A stretch of 64,000 nt of DNA from Saccharibacillus kuerlensis DSM 22868 (GTDB lineage: Bacteria > Bacillota > Bacilli > Paenibacillales > Paenibacillaceae). The position numbers were made by a program, and so were the translations under genes. The stretch spans positions 124,001-188,000 of the forward strand of contig NZ_KB899278.1 of NCBI RefSeq assembly GCF_000378145.1, in the 5' to 3' direction. Shown here piece by piece: positions 15,923 to 31,379 of this stretch (positions are counted from its first letter, which is position 1; the number at the start of each line of letters is the position of its first letter). The notes beneath the pieces were generated by a model that made no database searches, was not told the DNA's origin, and worked only from the letters and a program-made list of their open reading frames with translations.

Positions 15923-16005
15923 TGCCGAGAACCGGACTCGAACCGGTACGGGATTGCTCCCGGCAGATTTTAAGTCTGCTGTGTCTGCCATTCCACCACC
16001 CCGGC
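15923..16005 (-). tRNA. tRNA-Leu (anticodon UAA)
   Basis: An 83-nt class II tRNA read on the minus strand. The acceptor stem GCCGGGG pairs with TCTCGGC (two G-U), with discriminator A. The anticodon loop CTTAAAA gives anticodon TAA. A long variable arm (CCGGGAGCAATCCCG area) and the T-loop TTCGAGT are present. CCA is not encoded. It is a single tRNA with its own promoter (16036-16065) and terminator. Confidence 0.95.
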
Positions 16006-18132: not shown

Positions 18133-18161
18133 TTGGCATTCCCTATGTGCTGTGCTACTAT
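18133..18161 (+). promoter_or_regulatory. Sigma-A promoter of the structured RNA
   Basis: TTGGCA (18133-18138), a 17-bp spacer, and TACTAT (18156-18161). Transcription is expected to start near 18168. Confidence 0.75.
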
Positions 18162-18167
18162 AGTGGC

Positions 18168-18330
18168 AACCGAAAGGAGGTGCGTTCACATCTATAATGA
18201 TATGCTGAACGTATCCCTTACCCGAACCGGTGCAGCTCTCTAAGGAGAGACTGCCCGGTGGCGCGGGATACGGAAAACAGCAAGCAAATAGCGCCACGGG
18301 TAAAAAGGCCGTCCTCCGGGACGGCCTTTT
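18168..18330 (+). ncRNA. Candidate novel pseudoknotted small RNA, about 165 nt
   Basis: A free-standing transcription unit with its own promoter and terminator but no convincing ORF. Four helices can be paired by eye. A: 18210-18217 with 18265-18272 (8 bp). B: 18227-18240 with 18245-18258 (13 bp, one bulge, TAAG loop). C: 18218-18224 with 18297-18303 (7 bp). D: 18259-18264 with 18291-18296 (6 bp). A crosses C and D, so the fold is a pseudoknot, with an 18-nt A-rich linker (18273-18290). Near the 5' end is AAAGGAGGTG, followed by a weaker hairpin; the nearest ATGs give 3- or 13-codon frames at poor spacing. I do not recognise a known riboswitch, ribozyme, 6S or SRP pattern. No gene lies downstream within 600 bases on this strand. 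Confidence 0.7.
18304..18330 (+). terminator. Intrinsic terminator of the structured RNA
   Basis: An 8-bp GC-rich stem (18307-18314 with 18319-18326) with loop TCCG is followed by TTTT. Confidence 0.85.
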
Positions 18331-18399
18331 GTATGTCTTAATGTTGTAAAACCCAGGTTTGCATAAAGCTTTATAATTTCGGTATACCAATCCTGCTTA

Positions 18400-31182: not shown

Positions 31183-31256
31183 TGGGCCCTACAGGACTCG
31201 AACCTGTGACCAACCGGTTATGAGCCGGGAGCTCTAACCAACTGAGCTAAGGGCCC
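31183..31256 (-). tRNA. tRNA-Ile2 (CAT anticodon, lysidine type)
   Basis: A 74-nt tRNA on the minus strand. The acceptor GGGCCCT pairs perfectly with AGGGCCC, discriminator A, anticodon loop CTCATAA. The body closely matches the Bacillus tRNA-Ile2 (TTAGCTCAGTTGGTTAGAGC, T-loop TTCGAGT) rather than elongator tRNA-Met. C34 should therefore be converted to lysidine by TilS. CCA is not encoded. Confidence 0.88.

Positions 31257-31305: not shown

Positions 31306-31379
<74 letters not shown>

Follow-up and report, generated by a model that had tools for sequence, protein, structure and literature searches.

A candidate family of stand-alone small RNAs in Paenibacillaceae with a predicted bistable pseudoknot and a conserved mini-ORF behind a non-AUG start

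The window analyzed here is the whole stretch of 64,000 nucleotides at positions 124,001 to 188,000 of contig NZ_KB899278.1 from Saccharibacillus kuerlensis DSM 22868, and all coordinates below refer to it. A consensus scan of the plus strand identified a promoter at 18133-18161, in which the hexamers TTGGCA and TACTAT are separated by 17 nt, as claimed in a preliminary description made from the sequence of the locus. TG precedes the second hexamer (extended -10). Promoter-like sites were about as common in the scan as in shuffled sequences (4 versus 2.5). Support for the promoter therefore comes from the homologues, in which, by visual inspection, the extended -10 was aligned (TRTGnTAnnnT) and the first hexamer was poorly kept. 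The predicted transcript (18166-18330, plus strand) is approximately 165 nt long, its start being estimated about 7 nt past the -10 element. It ends in an intrinsic terminator (18303-18330, plus strand), also claimed previously, which was detected as a terminator-like site in the scan. In the homologues, a terminator lay directly 3' of helix C (see below) in 107 of the 110 sequences in which this helix was located; L072, L073 and L101, in which it was not located, were left out of the count. The rule for a terminator was not satisfied by L083, L084 and L090, although at least L083 and L084 showed further hairpins before a T run. Judged by comparison of sequences, the RNA at 18166-18330 is real, with a sigma-A-type promoter, a length of about 165 nt, an intrinsic terminator and no match in Rfam, and it is probably transcribed in cells. 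Three tRNA genes (15923-16005, 31183-31256 and 31306-31379) also lie in the window, all encoded by the minus strand.

No family of Rfam 15 reached its gathering score over the RNA in the window, in agreement with the earlier statement that it could not be matched to a known riboswitch, ribozyme, 6S RNA, SRP RNA or tmRNA. When E values up to 10 were admitted, the best sub-threshold matches were far below the cut-off and mostly covered the terminator. The sole match in eight divergent homologue loci was a tRNA located elsewhere in L011. Among open-licence papers in PMC, we found none describing this RNA. An RNA-seq study of P. riograndensis reports 77 intergenic transcripts and 27 small RNAs, with three named (PMC5670726), and the present RNA may figure among them.

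To determine the distribution of the RNA, we searched related genomes. BLAST of 98 genomes gave 30 matches in 29 of them, of which 24 were the RNA; the other six (L025-L030) were short (24-30 nt) and for the most part covered the terminator, and we discarded them. With a covariance model based on the 24 homologues, the RNA was detected in 132 of the 344 sampled genomes of the family (6 of 19 genera), each time as a single copy. The RNA was absent from the other 212 genomes and is therefore not essential to the family. In a sample of the order, matches were found in 77 of 246 genomes, all within the family except for G075 and G463, the only two order-mates outside it with strong matches. In a sample of the class (348 genomes, model R1), there were 27 matches, comprising 25 in the family and two weak ones. 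G680 and G645 (22.8 and 22.5 bits; E approximately 0.002 per genome) were considered as more widely spread copies and rejected, because such scores are at chance level over 348 genomes. A DNA pattern applied to one genome per species detected 95 stretches; the 80 that were listed belonged to Paenibacillus, Saccharibacillus or Cohnella, plus one Bacillus sp. These family, order, class and per-species samples overlap. Phage and plasmid records contained no match to the RNA (blastn with short words, E 1e-5). One copy, L089 (genome G267), looked decayed: the Shine-Dalgarno sequence (SD) and the 5' arm of hairpin P0 were replaced and one pair of helix D was lost, with the remainder conserved.

When we inspected by eye the ORFs around 24 homologue loci, no common downstream or neighboring gene was evident across genera, so that a conserved downstream gene in the same direction, as expected of a cis-acting riboswitch or attenuator, was not found at these loci. 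Given the lack of a common neighbor and the terminator that followed helix C in nearly all homologues (107 of 110), the RNA is best regarded as a stand-alone unit.

The strand 18166-18335, with the terminator included, had a predicted folding energy of -80.5 kcal/mol, compared with a mean of -49.3 kcal/mol for 200 dinucleotide shuffles (z = -7.58), none of which folded as well; a fold beyond chance had been proposed, and this agrees with it. The paired segments (all on the plus strand) were recovered with a single correction. Helix A is formed by the strand A5' (CGTATCCC, 18210-18217) and the strand A3' (GGGATACG, 18265-18272). Helix C pairs 18219-18224 with 18297-18302, and helix D pairs the almost invariant GGCGC at 18260-18264 with 18291-18295. 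The sixth pair that had been assigned to helix D (18259-18296) was not kept in the homologue columns, and D is therefore 5 bp long. Hairpin B (18226-18259) is variable, with 96 distinct versions of approximately 24-38 nt among the homologues, and the A-rich linker of 18 nt (18273-18290) is variable as well. Helix A, through its A3' strand, crosses helices C and D.

In an alignment of 88 homologues, helices A, C and D were paired in 99.4% of the cells (99.9% for helix A alone), a level reached by none of 500 shuffles, and when the pairing was slid by 1-3 columns, only 23-64% of the cells were paired. The helices thus persist in the homologues. Two-sided changes were detected at 3 of the 19 pairs of these helices: in 13 rows at a pair of A, in 2 rows at a pair of C and in 6 rows at the adjoining pair of C. 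A smaller alignment agreed broadly with this and showed many two-sided changes in hairpin B. The compensatory changes for which the preliminary description had proposed a search therefore occurred in A, C and B but not in D, and the conserved crossing of helices is supported through A and C. Since the model used for fitting the alignment comprised P0, B, C and D and left out A, the alignment is free of model bias with respect to helix A. Part of the conservation may have another cause, since D and most of C lacked compensatory changes.

The statement that the RNA contains no credible ORF did not hold, because the homologues share a reading frame. In the window, this mini-ORF (18190-18243, plus strand) comprises 17 codons (IYNDMLNVSLTRTGAAL); it starts with AUC at 18190, and its stop, UAA (18241-18243), lies in the hairpin B loop. 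The strong ribosome-binding sequence at the 5' end, previously suggested as possible bait, instead precedes by 9 nt an AUH codon (AUU, AUC or AUA) that opens a frame of 15-17 codons ending in the apical loop of B. Among 113 distinct core sequences, the codon 9 nt past GGAGG was AUU in 59, AUC in 47, AUA in 7 and AUG in none, and the stop was UAA in 93, UGA in 18 and UAG in 2. That the distance to the stop was divisible by three was true by construction of the in-frame search, and the evidence for the frame is instead the comparison of frames in hairpin B. In all of the 96 distinct B hairpins, the stop of the AUH frame touched the apical loop, compared with 13 and 2 of the 96 for the other frames. 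The length of the arm before the stop changed at least seven times on a tree of 86 rows (L075 and L089 left out); the match between stop and loop is therefore not due to common ancestry alone. Further, the loop of P0 contained no AUH-frame stop in any of 42 distinct segments, whereas 2000 shuffles gave a mean of 8.6 and a minimum of 2.

Of the 120 loci that were read, five lacked the search motif (L075, L087, L088, L089 and L093). By eye, the divergent L087 and L088 had a spacer shorter by 1 nt (8 nt) and still possessed AUU with an in-frame stop, and L075 also possessed AUH and an in-frame stop. L093 was identical to a sequence used later (L189), and L089 kept the 3' part only. Thus, on comparative evidence, the small RNA holds a conserved ORF, and the mini-ORF is presumably translated in cells. 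The peptide itself was less constrained: 62 different peptides were encoded by the 113 sequences, both ends of the peptide varied, and its constant middle (MLNVSLTR-like) coincided with P0, A5' and the 5' strand of C. Among near neighbors, 8 of 20 changes in the loop codons and 11 of 22 in the B-arm codons were synonymous (expected fractions 0.19 and 0.29), a modest excess that is confounded by the structure. Conservation concerns the frame, the weak start and the site of the stop, and the sequence of the peptide much less.

The P0 loop (18190-18204 and its counterparts in the homologues) also displayed stops in the -1 frame relative to AUH. These occurred in 39 of 42 distinct segments, as TAA, TAG or TGA at three alternative positions, whereas 2000 within-segment shuffles averaged 8.7 and never exceeded 19. 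We considered whether GUG within the SD opens a further tiny frame that ends at these stops and rejected this idea, because L087 and L088 break that frame but keep AUH in frame with its stop.

The SD (GAAAGGAGGTG, 18172-18182, plus strand) was delimited from alignment counts. Its part AAAGGAGG was invariant across the 113 distinct cores, save for rare changes in the leading As. Its complement GGATCACCTCCTTT was present in all five relatives searched, and a 16-nt version of the complement was not found in the assembly that contains the window. The SD is followed by hairpin P0 (18183-18211, plus strand), in which CGTTCACAT (18183-18191) pairs with ATG-C-TGAACG (18202-18211) and which holds the AUH codon and the following AUG. 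Two pairing registers of P0 were observed in the homologues, TTCACAT/ATGCTGAA and TCAACAT/ATGTTGAA. AUH could be kept not for the weakness of the start but because a G at its third position would form a pair with the opposite side of the P0 loop.

A5' has a second potential partner in the SD, with which it forms 11 pairs that were kept in 99.4% of the cells of the aligned homologues. Columns 41 and 42 varied only between U and C and between A and G, respectively, so that the G and U that are fixed in the SD could still be paired, and column 99 of A3' tracked column 41. Because the SD is invariant, its pairing with A5' shows no covariation and shuffles are uninformative. Both partners of A5' are supported by comparison, and since A5' can pair with either the SD or A3', the RNA is predicted to be bistable. 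In the predicted minimum-energy fold, A5' masks the SD in a 5' hairpin, accompanied by B, C and D. The pseudoknot described previously was therefore sustained as to its crossing helices, which are kept in the homologues, but is not the predicted minimum-energy state. In the full RNA, keeping the SD free of pairing cost 5.8-12.9 kcal/mol in all 13 homologues that we folded, these energies not including that of the pseudoknot, and in three of the 13 (L016, L020 and L088) the exact SD register was absent from the minimum-energy fold. When the SD was held unpaired and the RNA ended just past A3', helix A formed in 13 of 13 homologues, with 7 or 8 of its 8 pairs. When the SD was held open in the full RNA, the nested prediction kept A in 4 of 13 and preferred C and D in 9 of 13, as nested folding cannot combine A with C and D.

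Initiation factor IF3 discriminates against AUU-, AUC- and AUA-type starts. We compared the start of the mini-ORF with that of infC. In 51 of 51 family genomes, infC started with ATT or ATC, and in 50 of these the start was exactly 9 nt past GGAGG. The same combination of a strong SD and AUH at matching spacing was found in all 113 distinct cores of the RNA (9 nt); in L087 and L088 the spacing is 8 nt. Genomes without the RNA exhibited this infC layout too, and it therefore characterizes infC of the family and is not tied to the RNA. The S. aureus genes infC, cvfC1 and ccpN are reported to have AUA or AUU starts with extended SDs, yielding about 10% of the output of AUG in poor medium (PMC13009471). 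The mini-ORF has a strong SD and AUH in common with infC-type starts, and the 9-nt spacing with infC of the family; in contrast, those starts serve a real protein in an operon, whereas the mini-ORF has 15-17 codons in a stand-alone terminated RNA. IF3 was encoded in 344 of 344 family genomes, mostly in two copies. We also asked whether an IF3 paralogue was linked to the RNA and rejected this idea, because there was no association and many genomes without the RNA have two IF3 copies.

On these comparisons, the RNA represents a new family, well supported as a structured stand-alone RNA that is very probably translated. Its existence, single copy, structure, mini-ORF with start and stop, and the two partners of A5' are each supported by comparison. 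Somewhat better than an even chance, in our judgement, is the reading that, in this stand-alone small RNA, folding is linked both to the binding of ribosomes and to translation of the weak mini-ORF within it. With no ribosome bound, A5' (CGYRUCCYUU) would mask the SD in the extended 5' hairpin, and C, B and D would form downstream. Binding of a 30S subunit to the SD would free A5', which would then pair with A3' across C and D and close the pseudoknot; this flip of the fold is a reasoned prediction. Whether the bound 30S subunit fires would be decided at a non-AUG codon, AUU, AUC or AUA, a type of start that IF3 disfavors and infC uses, and the rate of starting may be set by IF3 status. An initiating ribosome would read 15-17 codons and terminate on hairpin B. 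The stop lies 13-22 nt (27 in one case) before the 5' strand of D in the homologues, and we speculate that a terminating ribosome would just spare this strand and A3'. The output would more plausibly be the stability of the RNA, or its access to a partner, than the peptide. An extension of this reading, which we consider unlikely, is that the RNA is a trans-encoded sensor of start-codon fidelity. In such a sensor, the infC-type SD-AUH arrangement would let the rate of 30S firing, as governed by IF3 or by the number of free 30S subunits, pick the SD-masked state, the 30S-bound pseudoknot or the translated state, with a downstream regulatory effect.

A strong SD close to the 5' end may also serve a purpose other than initiation. 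The cry3A STAB-SD of B. thuringiensis binds the 30S subunit without initiation and blocks RNase J1 (PMC4113751), and the present RNA likewise carries, in a Gram-positive bacterium, a very strong SD at an estimated 5-8 nt from its predicted 5' end. The RNA could then be a structural small RNA in which an SD-bound 30S subunit blocks 5'-3' decay, with the function residing in the pseudoknotted 3' part and the ORF being incidental. However, a STAB-SD does not direct initiation and needs no frame, whereas here a conserved frame follows the SD, ends in the B loop in 96 of 96 hairpins and lacks early stops in all 42 loop segments, and we give this explanation a small chance. The conserved frame and the partial synonymous excess would also suit an mRNA for a tiny protein, in which a peptide of 15-17 amino acids is the product and the RNA structure merely tunes its yield. 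The peptides argue against it, as their ends vary freely and their constant middle coincides with structural elements, with 62 versions in 113 sequences, and much of the conserved RNA lies downstream of the stop; we regard this as slightly less probable than protection by a STAB-SD.

About as improbable as the tiny-protein mRNA is a dual-function RNA in which the mini-ORF gates the exposure of a conserved segment, GGCGCGGGAUACGG, that pairs with mRNAs. The segment GGCGCGGGAU is almost invariant, and helix D is paired yet shows no covariation, so that an additional constraint on its sequence is likely. In the window's own genome, complements of GGCGCGGGAUACGGAA with up to 3 mismatches occurred at 72 places, compared with 24 in the reversed control. 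No convincing target was found there, however: the five best listed near-complements besides the RNA itself (1-2 mismatches) all lay inside long open frames, on either strand, and a 10-nt complement in the infC leader, considered as a target and rejected, was not kept in relatives. A compact pseudoknot with an A-rich linker is reminiscent of a metabolite-binding riboswitch or an orphan aptamer. We hold this to be very improbable, as the 24 inspected loci lacked a consistent downstream gene, the terminator ends nearly all copies, and few unpaired positions outside the SD are conserved.

The favored reading, a small RNA whose fold responds to translation of its own mini-ORF, has parallels in known systems. 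SgrS/SgrT, RNAIII/hld and SR1/SR1P are stand-alone RNAs that hold a short ORF, as the present RNA does; they have AUG or similar starts and longer, better-conserved peptides, and the present RNA differs from them in that its stop is fixed at the tip of a hairpin and its SD has a self-masking partner. The leaders of erm and amino-acid genes sense the ribosome, typically through a stall signal or a codon run. They share with the present RNA the idea that the position of a ribosome could choose between alternative helices, but the present RNA has no attached downstream gene, and neither a stall signal nor a codon run was seen in it. tmRNA, too, possesses a short frame that stops within a hairpin loop, as well as pseudoknots, but also has a tRNA-like domain, which the present RNA lacks, and Rfam gave no tmRNA match. 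If the favored reading is true, a previously undescribed RNA of an entire bacterial family unites in one device a ribosome-binding site, a deliberately weak start, a tiny frame whose stop sits at the tip of a hairpin, and a bistable pseudoknot. It would provide a small, single-locus system for studying how an RNA reads initiation fidelity and 30S occupancy, and would indicate that non-AUG starts can conceal translated frames within structured "non-coding" RNAs.

Two observations concern the IF3 genes. The genome that contains the window encodes, besides infC, a second IF3-like gene (G000:C9:138253-138714; 101 bits). Further, a GC-rich hairpin with a T run behind it, resembling an attenuator, precedes infC in most of the loci examined (L222 and L268-L283).
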